Shown here one piece after another: positions 11,022 to 38,762 of a stretch of DNA of 38,762 nucleotides. Position numbers and translations under genes: made by a program. Within the stretch, counting starts at the first letter, position 1, and each line of letters begins with the position of its first letter. Source of the DNA: an uncultured Thiotrichales bacterium (GTDB lineage: Bacteria; Pseudomonadota; Gammaproteobacteria; CAZUMV01); NCBI GenBank assembly GCA_938042355.1, contig CALIRD010000120.1, forward strand, positions 1 through 38,762. The letters are read 5' to 3'. The notes beneath the pieces are model-generated. The model was given only the letters and a program-made list of their open reading frames with translations. It had not been told where the DNA came from and searched no databases.

Positions 11022-12302
11022 TTATTTCCTGTTATCAATGACTCGTACTGCTTTACCTTCAGATCGAGGTAATGATCCTGGTTCTGATACTTCTACTTTG
11101 ACAGATATACCAATAAACGTTTTTATTTTATGACGTAGATCAGCAATGATATCTGCATCACTTCCCGAGCGATCACTACGCTCCACTCTGACACTAACGT
11201 TATCCATGTTTCCCTCACGATCAACTTGAATTTGATAGTGAGGAGCTAATACATCGATTGCCAGAATCTGCTCTTCTATTTGCGTCGGGAAAACATTCAC
11301 CCCACGGATGATTAACATATCATCACTACGACCTGTGATTTTATCCATGCGTCGCATACTTCGGCTGGTACCAGGCAGCAAACGAGTCAGGTCGCGTGTA
11401 CGGTAGCGAATTACCGGCATTGCCTGCTTGGTGATAGTAGTGAATACCAACTCGCCTTCCTCCCCATCCGGCAATACTTCACCACTAACCGGGTCGATAA
11501 TTTCGGGGTAAAAGTAGTCTTCCCAAATCGTTGGGCCGTCTTTACTCTCCACACATTCCTGCGCAACCCCCGGCCCCATAACTTCAGACAAGCCATAGAT
11601 ATCAACTGCATCTATTCCCAGACGAGCTTCAAGCTCCTGACGCATCGCATCGGTCCAGGGCTCAGCACCAAAAATACCGCAACGTAATTTTAATTGATGT
11701 GGGTCTATACCCTGCCGATCTATTTCATCAGCGATGTTCAACATATATGAGGGTGTGACCATAATGATGTCAGGCTGAAAATCCTGAATCAGTTGCACCT
11801 GTTTTTCAGTCTGCCCGCCTGACATCGGTATGACGGTACAACCCAGACGCTCAGCCCCATAGTGTGCGCCAAGACCACCCGTAAATAATCCATAACCATA
11901 GGAGACATGCACTTTATCTTTGGCTCGCCCGCCAGCAGCATAAATTGAACGCGCTACTACCTGCGCCCAATCATCGATATCAGACTGAGTATAGCCAACC
12001 ACTGTAGGCTTACCGGTGGTGCCGCTGGACGCATGCACTCGCACCACCTCTTCATCCGGCACACAAAACATACCGAAAGGATAGTTATCCCGTAAATCTG
12101 ATTTGACAGTAAATGGGAATTTACTCAGGTCGGAGAGGCTGTTTAAGTCGCTCGCATCAACACCGTGCTCTTTAAACTTCTCTCGGTAAACCGGAGAATT
12201 TTTTTGCACATGTTGCAGAGTCGCCTGCATGCGTTTTAATTGTACTGATTGCAGTTCATCAAGACTCGCAGTCTCGATCGCATCTAACCCTGCATGACTC
12301 AT
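11022..12302 (-). CDS. paaK: Phenylacetate-CoA ligase
   Basis: A 426-residue cytoplasmic AMP-forming ligase that converts phenylacetate, ATP and CoA to phenylacetyl-CoA, the entry step of the aerobic phenylacetate (Paa) pathway. Motifs: HASSGTTGKPTVVGYT (90-105) for ATP, the PaaK-specific SYGYGLFTGGLGAHYG (134-149) and PMSGGQTEKQ, YGLSEVMGPGVAQEC, RYRTRDLTRLLPG, and the C-terminal DMLIIRGVNVFPTQIEEQIL. Length matches the family. The Shine-Dalgarno GGAGTGAG precedes the ATG. It is divergent from paaZ across 118 bp and is followed after 2 bp by an exported amidase. A second CoA ligase of another type is at 1606-3129. Confidence 0.94.
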   Translation of the reverse strand: MSHAGLDAIETASLDELQSVQLKRMQATLQHVQKNSPVYREKFKEHGVDASDLNSLSDLSKFPFTVKSDLRDNYPFGMFCVPDEEVVRVHASSGTTGKPTVVGYTQSDIDDWAQVVARSIYAAGGRAKDKVHVSYGYGLFTGGLGAHYGAERLGCTVIPMSGGQTEKQVQLIQDFQPDIIMVTPSYMLNIADEIDRQGIDPHQLKLRCGIFGAEPWTDAMRQELEARLGIDAVDIYGLSEVMGPGVAQECVESKDGPTIWEDYFYPEIIDPVSGEVLPDGEEGELVFTTITKQAMPVIRYRTRDLTRLLPGTSRSMRRMDKITGRSDDMLIIRGVNVFPTQIEEQILAIDVLAPHYQIQVDREGNMDNVSVRVERSDRSGSDADIIADLRHKIKTFIGISVKVEVSEPGSLPRSEGKAVRVIDNRK

Positions 12303-12420: not shown

Positions 12421-14475
12421 ATGAGTATACAGAGTTTTGTGAATGATCAGTGGGTAACTGGAAGCGGTGATGGAGTTGAGCTTTTTAATGCTGTCGACTC
12501 AAGTCTTATTGGTAGTGCCAGTACCGAAGGCATCGACTTTGCTGAAGTCATAAAACACGCACGAGAAGATGGTGGACCTGCGCTGCGTAAACTCACTTTT
12601 CATGAACGAGCCAATCAACTTAAGGCGCTCGCAAAATACCTGATTGCCCAAAAAGAAGAACTATACAAAATATCTGCCTACACCGGTGCTACCAGAGCCG
12701 ACAGTTGGGTTGATATCGAAGGCGGCATTGGCACAGTATTCAGCTACTCAAGCATCACTCGTCGAGAATTTCCTAATCAATGTTTTCATGTTGAAGGTGA
12801 GGCAGAGCGTCTATCTGTCAACGGTACCTTTCTCGGGCGCCACATACTGACCCCCAAGCCTGGTGTAGCAGTACATATTAATGCCTACAATTTTCCTTGC
12901 TGGGGCATGCTCGAAAAAATTGCACCCAGCCTGCTGGCTGGGATGCCAGTGATTGTAAAACCCGCAACAGTGACATGCTATCTCACTGAAGCCATGGTGC
13001 GTATGATTGTAGATTCAGGAATCCTGCCCAAAGGTGCGATTCAACTTCTATGTGGCCGTACCGGTAACTTACTCGATTTACTGGATGAACAAGATGTGGT
13101 GACGTTCACGGGCTCTGCCAAAACCGGTCAAATGTTAAAAACTCATGACAACATAATCGCCAATAGCATCCCCTTTAATATGGAAGCAGATTCATTGAAT
13201 TGCTCCATACTCGGTTTATCCGTTGAACCAGGAAGTGAAGAATTCAAACTCTTCATTAAAGAGCTGGCCAATGAAATTACCAGTAAAGCCGGTCAGAAAT
13301 GTACTGCTATCCGACGTGCGATCGTACCCGCTAATCGGGTTCAAGCTGTTAGTGAAGCACTAAAAGACAGACTCAAAAAAATCCAGATCGGCAACCCCAC
13401 ATCCGAAGGGGTTCGCATGGGCGCATTAGCAGGTATGGACCAACGCAATGACGTCATTGAGCAAATTGAAAAGTTAAAAAACAGTAGTGAGATATTGTTT
13501 GGTGGCAGCACCAACAAAATGAACATACAGGATGCGAATGCCGATGACGGCGCTTTCTTTCCCGCCACAGTAATGTACTGTGACCAGCCATTAAGTTCTG
13601 ATGAAGTGCACAGTGTGGAAGCCTTTGGTCCAGTGTCAACGTTACTACCCTACTCTACCAATGACGAGGCAATAAAAATTGCCAGTCTGGGTAAAGGCAG
13701 CCTGGCAGGTTCAATCATTACCAATGATGAAACCGAAGCAACTGAATTAGTATTGGGTGTAGCCGCCTGGCACGGTCGTATGCTTGTACTTAACAGGGAG
13801 TGTGCAAAAGAATCAACCGGACATGGCTCACCACTGGCACAACTGGTACATGGTGGCCCGGGACGTGCCGGCGGCGGTGAAGAGCTGGGTGGTTCTCGGG
13901 CGATCAAGCACTACATGCAGCGAACCGCAATACAAGGGTCGCCCAGCATGCTTACCGCCATCACACAGGATTACAACCCGGGCTCGCGTCAAATAAAAAC
14001 AGACATTCATCCCTTTAGAAAAACGTTCGAAGAACTGCAAATTGGTGAGACACTGATAACCCATAAACGCACCGTAACCGAAGCGGACATCGTGAACTTT
14101 GGGTGCTTGTCGGGTGATCACTTCTATGCACACTTTGATGAAACGGCTGTGGAAGATTCCTTGTTTGGCAAACGCGTAGCCCATGGCTATTTCGTTATCT
14201 CAGCTGCTGCCGGAATGTTTGTTGACCCCGCCAAGGGACCGGTACTGGCAAACTATGGCCTGGACAACTTGCGCTTTATTGAACCCGTTGGTATCGGTGA
14301 CACTATACAAGTACGACTCACGGTCAAACAAAAGAACAAAAAAGATAAACGTGACGATGATGACTATTACACTGGCGTCGTCATTTGGGATGTCGAGGTC
14401 ACCAATCAACATCAAGATCCGGTCGCGCTCTATAATATCTTGACATTGGTAGAAAGAGCAGCAGATCCAGAGTAA
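12421..14475 (+). CDS. paaZ: Bifunctional oxepin-CoA hydrolase / semialdehyde dehydrogenase
   Basis: A 684-residue fusion as in E. coli PaaZ. Residues 1 to about 520 are an aldehyde dehydrogenase domain with catalytic Glu255 (FNMEADSLN) and Cys294 (KAGQKCTAIRR), and NAD-site signatures INAYNFPCWGMLEK and VVTFTGSAKTG. Residues about 535-680 are a MaoC-like hot-dog hydratase domain with GDHFYAHFD and RVAHGYFVISAAAG. The protein hydrolyses the oxepin-CoA ring and oxidises the resulting semialdehyde in the phenylacetate pathway. It is the first gene of a plus-strand run with the DUF485 protein and symporter, divergent from paaK. The ring epoxidase (paaABCDE) and beta-oxidation genes are not in this window. 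Confidence 0.94.
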   Translation: MSIQSFVNDQWVTGSGDGVELFNAVDSSLIGSASTEGIDFAEVIKHAREDGGPALRKLTFHERANQLKALAKYLIAQKEELYKISAYTGATRADSWVDIEGGIGTVFSYSSITRREFPNQCFHVEGEAERLSVNGTFLGRHILTPKPGVAVHINAYNFPCWGMLEKIAPSLLAGMPVIVKPATVTCYLTEAMVRMIVDSGILPKGAIQLLCGRTGNLLDLLDEQDVVTFTGSAKTGQMLKTHDNIIANSIPFNMEADSLNCSILGLSVEPGSEEFKLFIKELANEITSKAGQKCTAIRRAIVPANRVQAVSEALKDRLKKIQIGNPTSEGVRMGALAGMDQRNDVIEQIEKLKNSSEILFGGSTNKMNIQDANADDGAFFPATVMYCDQPLSSDEVHSVEAFGPVSTLLPYSTNDEAIKIASLGKGSLAGSIITNDETEATELVLGVAAWHGRMLVLNRECAKESTGHGSPLAQLVHGGPGRAGGGEELGGSRAIKHYMQRTAIQGSPSMLTAITQDYNPGSRQIKTDIHPFRKTFEELQIGETLITHKRTVTEADIVNFGCLSGDHFYAHFDETAVEDSLFGKRVAHGYFVISAAAGMFVDPAKGPVLANYGLDNLRFIEPVGIGDTIQVRLTVKQKNKKDKRDDDDYYTGVVIWDVEVTNQHQDPVALYNILTLVERAADPE

Positions 14476-29644: not shown

Positions 29645-31801
29645 TTATATGCTTTTTGTAGACGTATAGTGCTTCGGCTTTTCTCCTTCATTTTTCTGTC
29701 TGACTATAGCCTCCGCTACCGTTTCTAACTCTTCGGCGCTCTTGATCGCATATTTGCGATTAACCAACACAACTTCTTTGGCATTGGGTGCAGGCATCAC
29801 GTTGGCAGAATAGTATGCAACTGGCGACCTCTCTCCTGTTGTATCCTTGTCGATATCGATATCACGCTCATTAACCCCTTTCGGTTTTACACAAACGTCG
29901 TCAACAACCTCTAAATCAAGCCACCATTTTTTTACAGGGTTCCGTTTGCCGTACTGTAACCAGTCATCAAAAAACACGGCGATTGGTACCATTACAGTCT
30001 TTAACCAACGAGCATGCACACCGAGCCAAGTCCCTACCCTATGCAGTAAAGCACCATCAATAGAAACCACTTTATTTAATGGACAGGTTTTCATGCAGCG
30101 GCCGCAAGCTGAGCCTTTTGAGTTAGTAACACGATAGCGTGTACAGCGCTCAACATCTGGCTTCCACATTTCATAGCCGTTAAACATGACTTTTTCTTTA
30201 AAGGGAATAGCGTTAACGGGGCACTCTCTGGCACATTTTAAGCAATTCCCACAGAAGGTCTGTAAACCAAAATCAACCGGTTTATCGACCTCGAGCGGCA
30301 GGTCTGTCGTTAAAACCACAGATTTAAATCGCGGCCCCACATAGGGATTTAAAACCAATTCACCTATGCGGCTAAGCTCTCCTAAACCAGCCCATAAAAT
30401 TAAAGGTATATGCAAGACATCGCTATCTGCCTGTGTGTGCGGCCTGGATGAATAGCCTTTATTTCTTAAAAACTCAGACATAACGCCGGCGATCTCGGCA
30501 CCACGCAAATAACCGCGCATGGATTGACCACCGGAAATCCAGTCATCACCGCTTGCACCTTCCATCGTACCATGGCCTTGATCTATCAACATGACTACGG
30601 CGTATCGATGGTAGGTGGGAATTTCGGTGCCATCCATTTGATGGCTGTACCAGGCATAATCAGGAATTTCACAGATACCGGTTAAATCAGCACCTAAATG
30701 GTATGCAAGAGATTTAATCGCCTTGGCATTAGCTTTAGGGTCATTTAATTCACTACCTTTTTGGGCCGCTACTTCGCCCTCTTGTTTCGACGCTAGAGCA
30801 CCAAATAAAGGCCCCATTCCTGCTGTTAATGGATGCTTCATCGCAAAGCGTGGCACTTGTTTTTGAGCCTTACTTCCCAGATCTCCTGATCTCGCTCTTA
30901 CGAAAAAATTAGCGCGCTTGGGAACTCGAGGCACTTCATCATCAAGAATCAGCGTGGTAGGACGATCAACTCGTTTTATCTGCTCCATTGGGTAGCGGCT
31001 AAGATGACTTTTACGCTTGCTACGACGATTGATTTCACGCAAAGAGGTTGCCCCATTGATGCCACGCCTATAGTGAAATTTATTGACCCTTGCACCTGTT
31101 TTAAAGGGCGTATCTATGGCTAACTCGTAGTCTGTTGTAATAACAGCCAAGGCAAATGCTTGGCCTAAAAAAGGGCTCTGAATCTCTAGTGCATTACCTG
31201 AATCATCGCTAGTACGCTCCGCAATACCCGACAGAACAGCGAGACGATCAAGGTCTACTAATGTATTTCCCTCGAAATGTGACTGAGCATTAAAACCCAG
31301 TTTTCGAATATAGCCTGATAGTGATGAACTAATTTCAATACCACGCAGCCGAGCAATATCATGCTCCGCGCCATTCAACCATTCATGCGCTAAATTATCT
31401 GACTCAGGTAGCCTTCCATAAGCAACAAGAAGCACAATAGCAAAAGCATGCTCAAGCGGTTTAGCATCGCTTAACCAGCAATTTTCGACAACATGACAAA
31501 TACCAACATGGGAGGTGTCAAGAAAGTAAGCAGCTCCTTTTACATCTGCACTTCGACGCTCAAAGGAGTCTGGTAGAGGAGCCTTTTGATTGGCCACTTC
31601 ACCTTTAAAAAACCGACCTAATGAAGACGAATAATCGTTGACCACCTTTGCTAAAAGTTTGTCTGAGCTCGTGTAGGGTGTGCTTGCGCTTGCTGGGATT
31701 TGAGCTTCCAACTCAATAATACTCGCATCTTTCTCTAAAGCTTCAAGAGGATACGTTCCAAGTTCGACTGGTCTATTGTGGCTTTTTTCATGAATTAGCA
31801 T
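29645..31801 (-). CDS. Reductive-dehalogenase-like iron-sulfur protein with internal duplication
   Basis: A 718-residue protein with no signal peptide. The C-terminal part carries two ferredoxin-type clusters as in reductive dehalogenases and epoxyqueuosine reductases: C517xxC520xxC523xxxC527P and C553 with C566xxC569xxxC573P. Residues about 366-508 (LAYHLGADLTGICEI ... SVVLTTDLPLEVDKPV) match the cobamide-binding RdhA/QueG-like fold. Residues about 90-233 (AAYFLDTSHVGICHV ... LAVITTDYELAIDTPF) repeat the same sequence pattern and look like a second, degenerate copy without clusters. Cytoplasmic location and lack of Tat signal differ from respiratory RdhA. The true reaction is unknown; B12-dependent dehalogenation is possible. 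A long 3' gap (29368-29644) holds nothing recognised. Confidence 0.8.
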   Translation of the reverse strand: MLIHEKSHNRPVELGTYPLEALEKDASIIELEAQIPASASTPYTSSDKLLAKVVNDYSSSLGRFFKGEVANQKAPLPDSFERRSADVKGAAYFLDTSHVGICHVVENCWLSDAKPLEHAFAIVLLVAYGRLPESDNLAHEWLNGAEHDIARLRGIEISSSLSGYIRKLGFNAQSHFEGNTLVDLDRLAVLSGIAERTSDDSGNALEIQSPFLGQAFALAVITTDYELAIDTPFKTGARVNKFHYRRGINGATSLREINRRSKRKSHLSRYPMEQIKRVDRPTTLILDDEVPRVPKRANFFVRARSGDLGSKAQKQVPRFAMKHPLTAGMGPLFGALASKQEGEVAAQKGSELNDPKANAKAIKSLAYHLGADLTGICEIPDYAWYSHQMDGTEIPTYHRYAVVMLIDQGHGTMEGASGDDWISGGQSMRGYLRGAEIAGVMSEFLRNKGYSSRPHTQADSDVLHIPLILWAGLGELSRIGELVLNPYVGPRFKSVVLTTDLPLEVDKPVDFGLQTFCGNCLKCARECPVNAIPFKEKVMFNGYEMWKPDVERCTRYRVTNSKGSACGRCMKTCPLNKVVSIDGALLHRVGTWLGVHARWLKTVMVPIAVFFDDWLQYGKRNPVKKWWLDLEVVDDVCVKPKGVNERDIDIDKDTTGERSPVAYYSANVMPAPNAKEVVLVNRKYAIKSAEELETVAEAIVRQKNEGEKPKHYTSTKSI

Positions 31802-31895: not shown

Positions 31896-31912
31896 ACGTA
31901 GCGCTAATGGGT
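31896..31912 (-). repeat. Probable attC fragment, left of the cassette array
   Basis: The 17 bases ACGTAGCGCTAATGGGT are identical to the L'-R' end of the attC at 37456-37545 (37461-37477). A match of this length by chance in 38 kb is very unlikely. The rest of the site is not recognisable. It sits 61 bp below the stop of the hydrolase gene, exactly where an attC would stand if that gene had been a cassette. Confidence 0.6.
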
Positions 31913-33296: not shown

Positions 33297-33361
33297 GCCT
33301 ACTTTTCACCGTATTTGGAATCGCAGTGACCGTAGGGAGCGATTTACGCGCCTGATTGGGC
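33297..33361 (-). repeat. Decayed attC site at the distal end of the array
   Basis: CGTATTTGGAATCGCAGTGA onward (33310-33361) matches the R''-L'' half of the standard attC of this array with scattered changes; the other half has been deleted, leaving a possible R' remnant GCCTAC at 33297. The R'' box reads GCCCAAT on the minus strand where intact sites have GCCTAAC, so it should no longer recombine. Confidence 0.8.
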
Positions 33362-33802
33362 ATCAAGGTATTTTTCGAAACAGACTGAACGGTTGTTATT
33401 CTTATATTTGCCGTAAGCAATGCACTCTTGATAATTGTGTTTTTTATAAAACTCAACCGCTTCTAAGTTAATTATTCTGGTAGATAGGAGCACATGATTA
33501 TAGTTAAATTCTTTTGCTTTTTTTTCTAATTCACGAAGTATGATATTACCGCAACCTTTTTTTTCGGAGTACATTCTTTTTATTTCACAAGTAGTGGCTG
33601 TTATTTTTCTTAGCGCTCCACATCCAATGGCACTACCATTTATCTTTAGAATAAGAAACGCGTCTGTAGCAACTGAAAATTCTTTCTCTTTATACGAACT
33701 GTTGCCACTATCACCGGTTATTGATTCTAATGTTTGACTTAGTTTATTGATTAATAGTTGAGCATCAGTGTCGTCAGGCGTAGTAAATATGATCTCATTC
33801 AT
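33344..33802 (-). CDS. Cassette ORF: GNAT-family N-acetyltransferase
   Basis: A 152-residue acetyl-CoA-dependent acetyltransferase: strands FLILKINGSAIGCGALRKI, CEIKRMYSEKKGCGNIILRELEKKA (parts) and the late EAVEFYKKHNYQE. In the acetyl-CoA loop, where the usual R/Q-x-x-G-x-G/A is expected, the protein has KKGCGNI. The stop codon TAA lies inside the adjacent decayed attC: the original R'' stop (TAA) appears to have mutated to CAA, adding QSGA before a new stop. It is the last intact cassette gene on the left. Substrate unknown; GNATs are common cassette cargo. Confidence 0.86.
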   Translation of the reverse strand: MNEIIFTTPDDTDAQLLINKLSQTLESITGDSGNSSYKEKEFSVATDAFLILKINGSAIGCGALRKITATTCEIKRMYSEKKGCGNIILRELEKKAKEFNYNHVLLSTRIINLEAVEFYKKHNYQECIAYGKYKNNNRSVCFEKYLDAQSGA

Positions 33803-33809
33803 TTAATGT

Positions 33810-33868
33810 GCCTAACGCTCCGCTCACCCGCAGTGTACGCGCTGTCGGCGTGCAGCGGCTTGTTAACT
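33810..33868 (-). repeat. attC site, divergent 59-bp type
   Basis: GCCTAAC and GTTAACT bound a 59-bp imperfect palindrome (CTCCGCTCACCCGCAGTG ... CGGCGTGCAGCGGCTT). This size and sequence are those of the attC of gammaproteobacterial cassettes from other integrons, and differ wholly from the seven other sites here, so this cassette (gene at 33863-34402) probably arrived from a foreign integron. Confidence 0.88.
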
Positions 33869-34402
33869 CAGCTTCTGCCAAACCATGGTAACTAATAAGG
33901 TTGCAACCAATATTACCGTAGGATAAAACGTTAATGTAAAACCTAGTGCCCTTGCTGGCGCACCGTTTTTATAAGTAGTAAATAACAGCAACCTACCTAG
34001 TACAAAAATAGCGGAACACGCTACTGGCGCTGACAGAGTATTTATAGGCATTACAAAGCACCACGCTGTGTATGCACCAAGCGCGATACAAAATTGCTCT
34101 AAAGTGTTTTGTATAAGGCTTTGCAATAATTTCGCTTTTTCCGTTCCTTTTGTCAGCGCGCCGCCATCTATGTCTTCTGGTGTGAAAAATCGATGTTTTG
34201 CTAAGCGCCCAATTGATATTACAAGAAGTAGGCAAGGCCATAGCACCACCACACCCAAAGTACTGACTCGCAGGCTTAATTCATCTACCTCTTCAACAGC
34301 TGTTGGGAAGAAGTAGACACTACCAAACACTGCAATTAGCGATATTAGGAGGCCTGCTGCCATACCTTTAGCCACCCCAGCTTGTTTATCTGTATATTCC
34401 AT
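33863..34402 (-). CDS. Cassette ORF: membrane protein, four helices
   Basis: A 179-residue protein with four membrane segments (about 12-33, 44-66, 98-118 plus 125-140, 150-172). KAKLLQSLIQNTLEQFCIALGAYTAW (parts) and GRLLLFTTYKNGAPARALGFTLTFYPT resemble the MAPEG family of small membrane enzymes (glutathione transferase/eicosanoid type), a likely but unproved assignment. The TAA stop is part of the R'' box of the 59-bp attC. The start ATG is 8 bp from the next attC. Confidence 0.78.
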   Translation of the reverse strand: MEYTDKQAGVAKGMAAGLLISLIAVFGSVYFFPTAVEEVDELSLRVSTLGVVVLWPCLLLVISIGRLAKHRFFTPEDIDGGALTKGTEKAKLLQSLIQNTLEQFCIALGAYTAWCFVMPINTLSAPVACSAIFVLGRLLLFTTYKNGAPARALGFTLTFYPTVILVATLLVTMVWQKLS

Positions 34403-34409
34403 ATTTTAG

Positions 34410-34499
34410 AGTTAACGTTGCGCGAAATGGTTCCAAAGACGCGCTAGCGTTTTTGGAATCGTAGTGACCGGAGAGAACGGTTTGCGCGCCTTGTTATAT
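34410..34499 (-). repeat. attC site of the array-type family
   Basis: GTTAACGTTGCGCG to CGCGCCTTGTTATAT. On the minus strand L'' (GCGCGCAAA) has one C more than the complement of L' (TTTCGCGC), the extra-helical base of attC. Central stem TTCCAAAAACGC pairs with GCGTCTTTGGAA-type bases. Confidence 0.92.
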
Positions 34500-34503
34500 T
34501 CTT

Positions 34504-35094
34504 CTACCAAAATTTCCACCATGGTTTTTTCTTTGTTTGTTTGCTTGATTCTGATGATGTAGATACTGGAGTAGGAGATATACTCGCGTACCTTGCTTCA
34601 GCAGCTTTCCAAAGATTTGGATATGTGGTCTGAAAATGATTTTCGTCCTCTTCATCCCATTCGTTTCCAGAAGGTTCTGAAGGTGCAGGAGACTGGCGTT
34701 CTGGGAGAGAACCTAATACTACTTCAACACCTTCCGTAACTGCATATTGGAATCCCTCAAAAAACCAAGAATCTTCATCAAATGACTCATCGGCCAATGA
34801 ATCTGGGTTATTCATAGCTTTTTCAAATGAGTTTTTTCCTCGGGAAATTAGAGATGACCTAAAATCATTAAAAGAGTCATCACTACAACCGCCATTTAAG
34901 ATATACGCGGCACCCCATAGTTCCCAGGAATAGGTCGTGTCCATTTTAGAGTCAAAAATTTGACTAAACTTTGTGGCGTCTTCTTTAGATAAATTTTTGA
35001 TCTTTTCAGTTAGCAGAGATGATTTTTCATCCATGTCACCATTTGCGGATTCATGAACATAATTAATTATTTTCCAAAATTCTGATTCATTCAT
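34504..35094 (-). CDS. Cassette ORF: DUF4240 domain protein
   Basis: A 196-residue cytoplasmic protein. The start is at the ATG 35092-35094 (MNESEFWKIINYV); the longer open frame begins inside an attC and is not real. The DUF4240 pattern is clear: EFWKIINYVHESANGD, WELWGAAYILNGGCSDDSF, NDFRSSLISRGKNSFEKAM, and FEGFQYAVTEGVEVVLGS, given in short parts. The C-terminal tail is Ser/Pro-rich and basic (QTKKKPWWKFW). No function is known. Its stop is 4 bp from the R'' box. Confidence 0.86.
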   Translation of the reverse strand: MNESEFWKIINYVHESANGDMDEKSSLLTEKIKNLSKEDATKFSQIFDSKMDTTYSWELWGAAYILNGGCSDDSFNDFRSSLISRGKNSFEKAMNNPDSLADESFDEDSWFFEGFQYAVTEGVEVVLGSLPERQSPAPSEPSGNEWDEEDENHFQTTYPNLWKAAEARYASISPTPVSTSSESSKQTKKKPWWKFW

Positions 35095-35115
35095 AAAGCG
35101 TTCCTGTTTGTTTGA

Positions 35116-35205
35116 ATATAACGTTGCGCGAAATGGTTCCAAAAGCGCGCTAGCGTTTTTGGAATCGTAGTGACCGTAGGAAACGGTTTGCGCGCCTTGT
35201 TAGCA
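35116..35205 (-). repeat. attC site of the array-type family
   Basis: ATATAACGTTGCGCG to CGCGCCTTGTTAGCA, with central AAAAGCGCGCTAGCG. Differs from the site at 36188 at few positions only. It follows the ORF at 35207-35698. Confidence 0.92.
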
Positions 35206-35206
35206 T

Positions 35207-35698
35207 TCATAGTTTGCCTAACACTAAATACTCACCGTCTATTGTATATTTTGCTATGGGCATATTTTTATTATGTGAATATGAGCCTATATTTTTTCCA
35301 TCATAAGACCACATAAATGCTTCTGTTAATTCTTTTGAGTCATGGCAAGTAATTACTCCATCCTTTTTAATAAAGTCACCGTTCATTTCAGGTCCAAAGT
35401 TTTGACAGTAACCACCATATCGCCCCCAATGAACGTCTGGCAATAAAGTCCCTTCATTTGTTACAGGTAGCCAATACACATAAAGTTTAGAATTATGGTC
35501 TTTAATCACCAAATAGGTCATTGGTTGATCTTCGATTATTTTAAACGTGCCATTTTGTATTTTTGAAATATTTAAATGGGGACGATTAGCCTCTGCCTTT
35601 GCAGAAGGTGCCAATGAACCTGTAAATACAGAGCCCAAAGAAATGATGCCAATTACACCTAGAATGCAGATTAGAATTGTAAGGTGTTTTTTGTTCAC
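35207..35698 (-). CDS. Cassette ORF: exported or membrane-anchored protein of unknown function
   Basis: A 163-residue protein with an N-terminal signal or anchor (MNKKHLTILICILGVIGIISLG). The mature part has FKIIEDQPMTYLVIKDHNSK, YVYWLPVTNEGTLLP, and a closing YTIDGEYLVLGKL; no family recognised. One pair of Cys in the mature part (YCQNFG, VITCHDS) may form a periplasmic disulfide. It ends 1 bp from the R'' region of its attC at 35199. Confidence 0.75.
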   Translation of the reverse strand: MNKKHLTILICILGVIGIISLGSVFTGSLAPSAKAEANRPHLNISKIQNGTFKIIEDQPMTYLVIKDHNSKLYVYWLPVTNEGTLLPDVHWGRYGGYCQNFGPEMNGDFIKKDGVITCHDSKELTEAFMWSYDGKNIGSYSHNKNMPIAKYTIDGEYLVLGKL

Positions 35699-35705
35699 TT
35701 TCAGA

Positions 35706-35795
35706 TGCTAACGTAGCGCGAAATGGTTCCAAAGACGCGGAGCGTTTTTGGAATCGTAGTGACCGATAGGGAACGGTTTGCGCGCCTTGTTAGGT
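35706..35795 (-). repeat. attC site of the array-type family
   Basis: TGCTAACGTAGCGCG to CGCGCCTTGTTAGGT. The central loop differs (GACGCGGAGCG) from the other copies. The R'' box supplies the stop codon of the ORF at 35790-36173. Confidence 0.92.
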
Positions 35796-36173
35796 GTTTG
35801 CATTATAGTAATCTAAGACCGGTTTGTGTTTATAGAAATAATATATTGTAAATGCCATATGTAGTGCTGTGCTAATAGATGCTTCAACTATGTGAATTGT
35901 AGTTGGGTTTTCACCTAGATATAAGAAAAAAGCAAAGGTGATTATTGGAATTACAGCAATTATATGTTTCGTGATTATTTTCTTTCGTAATACCCCAGTC
36001 CCTAAAATAAACAATAAAGTGCTAATAACTAGTGTTTGTAAGTTTACGTTTAAACTTTTTCCAGGCATGGAGAGTTCAAATAAGTTAATGGGCAATATTG
36101 CTACAAATATGAAAGTTATTACCCTTAAAATTACAGGCATAGAGCGCCATCTTTTTAGAGTCCAACGAAACAT
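35790..36173 (-). CDS. Cassette ORF: membrane protein of unknown function
   Basis: A 127-residue protein with four membrane segments (about 14-32, 42-61, 68-84, 98-113). A basic start (MFRWTLKRWRSM) suggests the N-terminus is cytoplasmic. The stop TAA comes from the R'' box of the attC. No family recognised. The gene is AT-rich like its neighbours. Confidence 0.72.
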   Translation of the reverse strand: MFRWTLKRWRSMPVILRVITFIFVAILPINLFELSMPGKSLNVNLQTLVISTLLFILGTGVLRKKIITKHIIAVIPIITFAFFLYLGENPTTIHIVEASISTALHMAFTIYYFYKHKPVLDYYNANT

Positions 36174-36187
36174 ATCTTTTTTTTCAC

Positions 36188-36277
36188 ACCTAACGTTGCG
36201 CGAAATGGTTCCAAAAGCGCGCTAGCGTTTTTGGAATCGTAGTGACCGGAGGGAACGGTTTGCGCGCCTTGTTAGGC
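36188..36277 (-). repeat. attC site of the array-type family
   Basis: ACCTAACGTTGCGCG to GCGCGCCTTGTTAGGC; both boxes fit RYYYAAC and GTTRRRY exactly, so this copy serves well as the reference for the others. Confidence 0.93.
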
Positions 36278-36302
36278 AGATAGTTATTTGATTGAATTTT
36301 AT

Positions 36303-36578
36303 CTATCCGCCAAATTTAACGTATAAGAATAATAAACTATAAAAGATCAAAGCTGGGCTAATTATCATAAATATGCCGAATATACGGGATGTTAGAGAAG
36401 TGGCATTACCAATTATATTGATACCGGTTAGTAACCCAGACAATGCAACTAAAACCAAACCAACCGGAATTAATATACCTAAAAAAATAAAGACAGGAAC
36501 AGCGAGCGATAGTATTCCCAATACTAGTATGCATATTCCGGTAACAAATAAAGCCGCAATTTTACCGGGTGAAATCAC
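36303..36578 (-). CDS. Cassette ORF: hydrophobic membrane protein
   Basis: A 91-residue protein almost entirely hydrophobic, with three probable membrane helices (about 6-27, 29-54, 66-87). It begins with GTG; no in-frame ATG precedes it after the attC. Composition resembles small integral proteins of no known family. It lies 25 bp above its attC. Confidence 0.6.
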   Translation of the reverse strand: MISPGKIAALFVTGICILVLGILSLAVPVFIFLGILIPVGLVLVALSGLLTGINIIGNATSLTSRIFGIFMIISPALIFYSLLFLYVKFGG

Positions 36579-36604
36579 AATTTACCTGCCCTCTGATAAT
36601 GTAT

Positions 36605-36694
36605 GCCTAACGTTGCGCGAAATGGTTCCAAAGACGCGCCAGCGTTTTTGGAATCGTAGTGACCGCAGGGAACGGTTTGCGCGCCTTGTTATGT
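36605..36694 (-). repeat. attC site of the array-type family
   Basis: GCCTAACGTTGCGCG to GCGCCTTGTTATGT, central GACGCGCCAGCG. Separates the 91-residue membrane ORF from the helix-hairpin-helix ORF. Confidence 0.92.
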
Positions 36695-36706
36695 GCCTTT
36701 CCCATA

Positions 36707-36946
36707 TTATGTGGCTTTTTGTTTTGCTAAAGAAATTGCGTTGCTAATAGCAGCTTTAGACTGAGGACTGTTTTTCCAGCATGTTGTATTTAACATACTT
36801 GCCACCATTTCAGTAATATCTTCCGTCTCGTGTTTTTTTAGTTCTTTAAAAGAATGTATTCCAATTTCCTCTAAGCGTTTTATTACAGTTGGCCCAACAC
36901 CTTTTAACTCTAGTAGAGCTTCTTTTTCTTCAATACTAAACTTCAT
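36707..36946 (-). CDS. Cassette ORF: helix-hairpin-helix protein
   Basis: A 79-residue protein from the ATG 36944-36946. LLELKGVGPTVIKRLEEIGI is a helix-hairpin-helix with the GVGP hairpin, followed by HSFKELKKHETEDITEMVAS. The HhH of the Cdd1/pathogenicity-locus type binds DNA non-specifically in larger proteins. Here it stands nearly alone with a short second half (NAISLAKQKAT), so a DNA-binding or single partner role is possible. An upstream ATG seven codons earlier is inside the attC border and less likely. Confidence 0.8.
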   Translation of the reverse strand: MKFSIEEKEALLELKGVGPTVIKRLEEIGIHSFKELKKHETEDITEMVASMLNTTCWKNSPQSKAAISNAISLAKQKAT

Positions 36947-36963
36947 TAATTTCTCTTTTATGC

Positions 36964-37053
36964 ACATAACGTTGCGCGAAATGGTTCCAAAGACGCGCTA
37001 GCGTTTTTGGAATCGTAGTGACCGGAGGGAACGGTTTGCGCGCCTTGTTATGC
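36964..37053 (-). repeat. attC site of the array-type family
   Basis: ACATAACGTTGCGCG to GCGCCTTGTTATGC, with central GACGCGCTAGCG. Its R'' box provides the stop of the ORF at 37048-37443. Confidence 0.92.
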
Positions 37054-37443
37054 ATTTGTAGATTTATTCTTGATATTACTTTTATTCAATAATTCGATAA
37101 TTTCATTTGAGTTACGTGTGTTTATAATTATTTTTCTTGGTAATGTACTTACATTGTGATGATATCTTATAAAATCACCAATTAAATACCTAGGTTTGCT
37201 GACTAAATTTATCTCGTTGAAATTTAGTTCTAACATTGTATTCCCATAAGAAATGATTACGAATTGATCATAGATAGCATGTCTTACAAGAGGGGGCATG
37301 AGGTTCGTAAAACCAAAACTGCCACCACATCTTTCAGTAAATAGTGGTGTTATTTCTTCTTCTCTAGGTGATTTCTTGAAGCTACCTAAGCCATAAAATA
37401 AAAATACAAAAAGAAGAAAAATTAATACAAAAAATATGTTCAT
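37048..37443 (-). CDS. Cassette ORF: membrane-anchored small protein
   Basis: A 131-residue protein from the ATG 37441-37443 (MNIFFVLIFLLFVFLF). One strong N-terminal membrane helix (about 1-20) and a soluble basic part with YDQFVIISYGNTMLELNF and PRKIIINTRNSNEIIEL, possibly a PH-like beta domain, uncertain. The longer open frame starts inside the attC. Stop TAA belongs to R''. No family recognised. Confidence 0.72.
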   Translation of the reverse strand: MNIFFVLIFLLFVFLFYGLGSFKKSPREEEITPLFTERCGGSFGFTNLMPPLVRHAIYDQFVIISYGNTMLELNFNEINLVSKPRYLIGDFIRYHHNVSTLPRKIIINTRNSNEIIELLNKSNIKNKSTNA

Positions 37444-37455
37444 TATATTTACTTT

Positions 37456-37545
37456 GCATAACGTAGCGCTAATGGGTTCCAAAATACGCGTAGCGTTTTT
37501 GGAATCCTAGTGACCGCAGGGAACGATTTGCGCGCCTGGTTAGAC
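37456..37545 (-). repeat. attC site of the array-type family
   Basis: GCATAACGTAGCGCTAATGG to GCGCGCCTGGTTAGAC. More diverged than the others (AATACGCGTAGCG centre) and shares 17 identical bases with the fragment at 31896-31912. Confidence 0.92.
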
Positions 37546-37554
37546 ATGGGATTA

Positions 37555-37890
37555 TTAGTCATCTAAAAACTTCTCTCCACATGAACTGCAGTTTCCTGTG
37601 GCTACGGCGATTTCTATCCCAACATTAGTGAGATTTTTACCGCACTTACTACAGCGTAATTTTGATTTTTTGGAATTAATAATACCAAAGACCAGTATGG
37701 CAACAATGGAGCCGATTAAGCCTAATAAGCAAATAGATGCAAAAAGGGTGTTGCGGTAATTTTCATTCTCGCCACCAAAAATCATTAATCCTATAACAGC
37801 GAGTAGAGCAAAAATAAACCAGCTAGCAAAAACACGCTTTCCACTCCGTTTTTCATTTTCCCAATTTTCAAGGAACTCAGTTCGATTCAT
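37555..37890 (-). CDS. Cassette ORF: membrane protein with C-terminal zinc ribbon
   Basis: A 111-residue protein with two membrane helices (about 20-38 and 46-70) and a C-terminal ribbon: RCSKCGKNL and NCSSCGEKF, a pair of CxxC knuckles. The N-terminal part is charged and cytoplasmic. The role is unknown; this arrangement resembles small membrane sensors or chaperone-like proteins. It is the first cassette after the IS on the integrase side. Confidence 0.74.
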   Translation of the reverse strand: MNRTEFLENWENEKRSGKRVFASWFIFALLAVIGLMIFGGENENYRNTLFASICLLGLIGSIVAILVFGIINSKKSKLRCSKCGKNLTNVGIEIAVATGNCSSCGEKFLDD

Positions 37891-37897
37891 TTTCTAT

Positions 37898-37935
37898 GTC
37901 TAACGTTGCGCGAAATGGTTCCAAAAGCGCGCTAG
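37898..37935 (-). repeat. attC site, half, interrupted by an insertion sequence
   Basis: GTCTAACGTTGCGCG and the L' arm to GCGCGCTAG are intact, then the IS begins at 37936. The R''-L'' half should lie on the other side of the element, beyond the window. Confidence 0.88.
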
Positions 37936-38762
37936 TGATCTTGCACCCGAAAAGTGGACACTCAGGAGATACATTGTTCATACTCCGATGGCGTTTTATA
38001 GTTAAGAGATGAGTGTAACCGCAGGTTGTTATAAAAGTCGATATAGTCGATAAATTCTTTTTCTATTTCAGCGGCGTTCTTGAACCGCTTTTGATAGTAC
38101 GACTCGGTTTTAAAGGTGTGGAAAAACGATTCTGCAGTGGCATTATCCAGACAGCGTCCTTTGCGGCTCATACTGGCTTTCAAGCTGGCCGCTTCGAGTG
38201 CTGTCTGGAACGTCTCAGCCACATACTCAACCCCTTGATCGGTATGGAACAAGGCACCGGGTAAAGGTTGCCGAGTATCCAGAGCTTTTTCCAGCGACGC
38301 CGTAGTGAAGTGGGTATTGCGTACCGTTGAGACGGCCCAACCAATGATTTTGCGTGAATACAGATCCATGATAGTCGCTAAGTAGACCCACTGAGCGGAG
38401 CGCGTTTTAAGGTAAGTAAAGTCAGCAACCCATTGTTGATTCATCTGCGAAGGTGGTTTCGCTTTACCCAAATGATTCTCTACCCGACGATAGACATCGT
38501 AGTGTTTTGGCCGGTATTTATAGAGCCCGACCACACTGGCTGTAATGCCATTTTCCCGCATAACACGGGCCACACGACGTCGACTACACGTTATACCTTG
38601 TCGCTTGAGGAGCTGATAGACACGTGGGCTACCGTAGCAACGTTGACGTCCCCGATGAACGTCTTTAATTTGTTCCAGCAAGCGAGCATCGCTAGTATTA
38701 GTCGGTTTGGTTTTCCGCTTTTCCCAGGCATAAAAGCCACTTCGAGATACGCCGAGGCGTAC
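37936..38762 (-). mobile_element. IS3-family insertion sequence, inserted into an attC (truncated by window edge)
   Basis: The end reads TGATCTTGCACCCGAAAAGT, with terminal TGA as in IS3-family elements. It follows GCTAG of the attC, that is, the loop apex. The 3-bp duplication cannot be verified since the right end lies beyond 38762. Confidence 0.85.
37962..38762 (-). CDS. IS3-family transposase OrfB (DDE integrase), 5' partial
   Basis: The frame is open to the window edge; the 266 visible residues start with VRLGVSRSGFYAW, the usual OrfB beginning. The HTH_21 segment is YGSPRVYQLLKRQGI. The catalytic triad of the rve domain is complete: Asp in VADFTYLKT, Asp in LFHTDQGVEY and Glu in NATAESFFHTF, with 35 residues between the second and third, the DD(35)E spacing. 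C-terminal YNNLRLHSSLNYKTPSEYE is also standard. It probably depends on a frameshift with an OrfA to the right. The TTG 38679-38681 is internal. Confidence 0.93.
   Translation of the reverse strand, partial: VRLGVSRSGFYAWEKRKTKPTNTSDARLLEQIKDVHRGRQRCYGSPRVYQLLKRQGITCSRRRVARVMRENGITASVVGLYKYRPKHYDVYRRVENHLGKAKPPSQMNQQWVADFTYLKTRSAQWVYLATIMDLYSRKIIGWAVSTVRNTHFTTASLEKALDTRQPLPGALFHTDQGVEYVAETFQTALEAASLKASMSRKGRCLDNATAESFFHTFKTESYYQKRFKNAAEIEKEFIDYIDFYNNLRLHSSLNYKTPSEYEQCIS

Follow-up and report, generated by a model that had tools for sequence, protein, structure and literature searches.

The gene rdhA in the window (the entire analyzed stretch of 38,762 nucleotides, contig CALIRD010000120.1 of an uncultured Thiotrichales bacterium) encodes a probable vitamin-B12-dependent enzyme which, by analogy with NpRdhA and JtRdhA, would take bromine or iodine off phenols. 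We consider it likely, with a probability of roughly 0.88, that the product is a cytosolic catabolic reductive dehalogenase (RdhA) of the NpRdhA type without a fused reductase, which by the same analogy would debrominate or deiodinate ortho-halophenolic compounds. It is an unremarkable addition to an enzyme class that has already been described, and its features are as follows:

29645..31801, minus strand: rdhA gene, 718 aa, probable reductase-less catabolic reductive dehalogenase (ORF, phmmer, TIGR02486, predicted structure)
31094..31543, minus strand: copy 1, residues 87-236, a cobalamin-type domain that is degenerate and devoid of the catalytic residues (repeat statistics, own fold model and PDB matches, lost S/Y/K counterparts)
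30266..30718, minus strand: copy 2, residues 362-512, putative active core for cobalamin binding, containing S427, Y431 and K493 (alignment, conservation, repeat statistics)
30218..30253, minus strand: first 4Fe-4S motif, C517-x2-C-x2-C-x3-C527-P (Pfam Fer4_7 above cut-off; invariant cysteines)
30083..30145, minus strand: second 4Fe-4S motif, C553...C566-x2-C569-x3-C573, containing the substrate-contact equivalent R557 (conservation; alignment with NpRdhA R552)

The ORF begins with an ATG and has no internal stop. A phmmer search against the PDB aligned residues 7-707 of its product with NpRdhA (4RAS/6ZXU; 704 aa) with an E-value of 1e-190 and 46% identity across 683 aligned residues, and the protein also passes the reductive dehalogenase model TIGR02486 (183.1 bits versus a cut-off of 160.35). 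This score and the end-to-end NpRdhA match bear out the reductive-dehalogenase-like identity proposed in an earlier note made from the DNA alone. The same search recovered weak hits to PceA (E 3e-21) and QueG (E 1e-4), which might make the protein a respiratory enzyme like the former or, like the latter, an epoxyqueuosine reductase; however, their E-values trail that of NpRdhA by more than 160 orders of magnitude, and this reading can practically be dismissed. We rejected QueG by its own model (TIGR00276, 26 bits versus a cut-off of 200), and a respiratory RdhA by the lack of a Tat signal and of RdhB. The N-terminus (MLIHEKSHNRPVELG...), read by eye, shows neither a twin-arginine (RR) motif nor a hydrophobic segment, and rdhA has no small rdhB-like membrane ORF as a neighbor, in line with the absence of a Tat signal and of RdhB stated in the earlier note.

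A duplicated cobalamin-type domain with one degenerate copy

Besides this homology, the protein itself displays an internal domain duplication, conserved catalytic and cluster residues and the degeneration of one domain copy. Residues 87-236 and 362-512 align with a local BLOSUM62 score of 168, against a mean of 31.2 (sd 5.0, maximum 59) in 1000 shuffled controls, and profile-profile comparison of the two copies, using alignments of about 80 relatives, gave a probability of 99.9% and an E-value of 5e-36. The repeat limits first proposed, 90-233 and 366-508, sit within these boundaries, and the duplicated B12-type domain claimed with them is upheld by both statistics. The full-length AlphaFold model, for which the window and locus sequences served as input, has a pLDDT of 86.7 and a pTM of 0.91, with low quality at about residues 414-418 and in the cluster region. 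It matches 4RAS (NpRdhA) with TM-scores of 0.90/0.93, respiratory RdhAs being the next best. A model without a second copy would have counted against the duplication; the prediction contains that copy, and the order of helices and strands is identical in both. Modelled on its own (pLDDT 88.9), copy 1 recovered from the PDB NpRdhA, followed by the membrane-complex RdhA 8q4h, PceA and QueG, and weakly CblD. Since the output is silent on which of the two NpRdhA domains was aligned, the matches to PceA and QueG, which are single-domain proteins, are more telling (TM 0.38-0.59 by query length). Thus, as modelled, copy 1 has a cobalamin-type fold.

The two copies differ sharply in their conservation, with mean values of 0.83 in copy 2 versus 0.59 in copy 1, and with 48% versus 10% of positions conserved at >95%. 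The counterparts of S427, Y431 and K493 in copy 1 are H147, R151 and A217, which are freely variable across the family. Given that the catalytic counterparts are lost throughout the relatives, copy 1 is degenerate and should not constitute a second active site. The cobalamin-type fold and the GIC motif, which is kept in both copies, could alternatively be taken to mean that each copy binds a cobamide. Against such a two-site enzyme stand the far lower conservation of copy 1, the loss of its S, Y and K counterparts across relatives, its lack of 4Fe-4S clusters and the report that copy 1 of NpRdhA binds no cobalamin (PMC10463259), which together render it very improbable. We rejected a second cobamide site on the grounds of the residue loss: none of the catalytic counterparts tested is present in copy 1, and a single site is to be expected. 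The earlier proposal of a duplicated B12-type domain stands as regards the duplication; two cobamide sites would be a stronger version of it. In NpRdhA the extra domain cannot bind cobalamin and instead imitates the contact between the two monomers of the respiratory dimer (PMC10463259). The doubled domain of the rdhA product is an already described hallmark of "catabolic" reductive dehalogenases.

Active-site residues and likely substrate

The two 4Fe-4S motifs are located after copy 2 only. Their eight cysteines (C517, C520, C523, C527; C553, C566, C569, C573) are essentially invariant in an 81-sequence alignment, and these near-invariant residues and the Pfam Fer4_7 match agree with the earlier claim of two ferredoxin-type clusters restricted to the second copy. 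The phmmer alignment equates S422, Y426, K488 and R552 of NpRdhA with S427, Y431, K493 and R557, which are invariant in the 81 sequences with the single exception of one gap at R557. In NpRdhA the hydroxyl group of the substrate is held by S422, K488 and R552, the proton is proposed to come from Y426, and mutating A419 to Met shifts the substrate preference (PMC7565698). The A419 position corresponds to G424 in the rdhA product and is Gly in 78 of the 81 sequences. This glycine may enlarge the substrate pocket, and in view of its prevalence the substrate may differ from that of NpRdhA. Taken further, the protein might be a corrinoid/iron-sulfur reductase that shares the fold but has another substrate, perhaps one without a halogen, in a subfamily that has drifted from NpRdhA. 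The G424 replacement would fit such a reading, as would the wide occurrence of the family in marine and soil bacteria and a neighborhood that is not conserved over the loci and holds no dehalogenation genes in common. Yet every NpRdhA substrate and catalytic residue, including the phenolate-binding set, is invariant, and we regard a different substrate class as unlikely.

For the favored catabolic dehalogenase, cofactor binding, mechanism, substrate class and monomeric state are carried over from NpRdhA and JtRdhA, the substrate class by homology at 46% identity. A single cobalamin would be bound by copy 2, and electrons would reach the cobalt through the two 4Fe-4S clusters; as their donor we guess at an external ferredoxin or flavodoxin reductase system linked to NAD(P)H. 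The reduced cobalt would then attack the halogen of an ortho-halogenated phenolic substrate positioned by S427, K493 and R557, with Y431 donating the proton, and the dehalogenated product would enter ordinary aromatic catabolism. Copy 1 would no longer bind a cofactor but take the place that a second subunit fills in dimeric respiratory RdhA, resulting in a monomeric enzyme.

Genomic context and electron supply

A C-terminal PDOR domain is absent: the ORF ends at residue 718, and Pfam detects no FNR or Fer2 match. Unlike in the NpRdhA cluster, no ferredoxin or reductase gene is found among the rdhA neighbors; adjoining ferredoxin reductase and ferredoxin genes have been reported for only some reductase-less catabolic RdhAs and are not a defining feature. 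In the genome, which is 72% complete, two FNR-type proteins are encoded away from rdhA. The one on contig C72 we take to be a ferredoxin-NADP reductase, and the one on contig C53, which has a 2Fe-2S domain and lies beside a PaaX-like regulator, is presumably PaaE. Either could supply electrons, with no tie of either to rdhA. Corrinoids appear to be used elsewhere in the same genome, which encodes what we take to be a corrinoid protein adjoining an MttB-like methyltransferase and, presumably, a fused B12-dependent acyl-CoA mutase. No cobalamin riboswitch or other RNA family was matched by Rfam within the window.

No aromatic-halide pathway gene is adjacent to rdhA. The higher-GC part of the window contains two divergently oriented phenylacetate catabolism genes, paaK (11022-12302) and paaZ (12421-14475), about 15 kb from rdhA. 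JtRdhA lets E. coli W grow on 3-bromo-4-hydroxyphenylacetate (PMC10463259), and a link of rdhA to phenylacetate catabolism is conceivable, if unproven. From about 18 kb on, the window has a lower GC content (~0.40) and cassette-like small genes (glyoxalase, GFA, SnoaL, AlkD), and its far part shows the remains of an integron:

31896..31912, plus strand: 17-nt attC remnant directly upstream of rdhA, separating it from the hydrolase gene on that side; identical to a segment of the attC at 37461
33308-33356: attC half site
34402-37943: eight attC-like repeats (one truncated) with minus-strand cassettes

The remnant at 31896-31912 has a half-profile E-value of 0.023, and chance is an unlikely explanation for the 17-mer that it shares exactly with the attC at 37461. 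The cassettes of the array (33308-37943) encode mostly small unknown proteins, rdhA is the first gene past its eroded distal end, and an integron-integrase-like gene is present on contig C90. An IS3-family-like transposase occupies the contig end (37962-38762). We rejected rdhA as an intact cassette, since no recognizable attC was found on its 3' side. Its position as the first gene beyond the last attC remnant, along with its patchy occurrence among relatives, raises the doubtful scenario that it spread as, or alongside, an integron cassette; if true, integron-borne accessory metabolism would then include a reductive dehalogenase.

Relatives and known systems

One scan of genome contigs recovered 155 relatives. 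The best 80 of these, with best-segment identities of 46-67%, come mostly from alpha-, beta- and gammaproteobacterial metagenome assemblies, with a few from Acidimicrobiales. In a quick tree the rdhA product groups with three gammaproteobacterial sequences (SH-aLRT 99), on long branches that leave the direct sister uncertain. We know of no characterized close relative (~57% identity). Among 56 genomes searched only three, including its own, gave a strong match; the other two, of the same genus (G001) and the same class (G053), encode catabolic RdhAs with a fused PDOR reductase (reading frames 1078 and 1125 aa long, ~42% identity), and hence the reductase-less form is not seen in near relatives. 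ORF clustering around the rdhA loci showed no conserved neighborhood, with no non-rdhA family in more than 11 loci; the most recurrent neighbor families are mostly distant or shadow ORFs, and Pfam analysis of family representatives indicated generic metabolism.

Shorter RDH-like proteins were also encountered. Contig C106 of genome G000 encodes two divergent single-domain versions of 330 and 333 aa (L002:1204-2196, L003:1420-2421), which lack the duplicated domain and, with 99 and 108 bits, fall short of the 160 required by TIGR02486; a true QueG was not found in this incomplete genome. Four loci (L004, L035, L039, L053) carry a second, short RDH-like gene (318-413 aa) near the large rdhA; in L035 and L053 it follows immediately, and in L035 it scores above the TIGR02486 cut-off.

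The rdhA product adds a well-conserved member to a large, little-characterized group of reductase-less catabolic RdhAs in marine and soil Proteobacteria, which may account for a substantial share of the oxygen-tolerant turnover of organobromines. The JBC 2023 paper on JtRdhA describes one catabolic RdhA clade without a fused PDOR reductase, and lists vestigial duplication, absence of Tat (in both JtRdhA and NpRdhA), the PDOR-less clade and ortho-halophenol specificity as features of the class (PMC10463259). As all sequence features of the NpRdhA class are present here, the architecture is already known. The earlier note rightly held it to be unlike that of respiratory dehalogenases, but the novelty this implied is not sustained, as NpRdhA (4RAS) has already been crystallized. 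Respiratory PceA of Sulfurospirillum multivorans (4UQU) shares the cobalamin core and two 4Fe-4S clusters, but has one domain copy and is a dimer, Tat-exported and anchored to the membrane by RdhB. T7RdhA from Acidimicrobiaceae TMED77, another member of the reductive dehalogenase family, is likened to the rdhA product by description only; binding of a corrinoid, together with two 4Fe-4S clusters, has been reported for it (PMC10008544). The self-sufficient JtRdhA (Jhaorihella thermophila) and BhbA (Comamonas sp. 7D-2) have the duplicated domain and no Tat signal, and the same key residues are reported for JtRdhA (PMC10463259); in contrast to the rdhA product, both carry a C-terminal PDOR reductase. 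NpRdhA of Nitratireductor pacificus (PDB 4RAS, 6ZXU, 6ZXX, 6ZY0, 6ZY1) differs in being 46% identical, in having A419 for G424 and a somewhat shorter C-terminal region, and in the ferredoxin and ferredoxin reductase genes adjoining its gene, but resembles the rdhA product in its length, in the duplication of its cobalamin-type domain, in having two 4Fe-4S motifs behind copy 2 but neither Tat nor a fused reductase, and in the S422/Y426/K488/R552 set.
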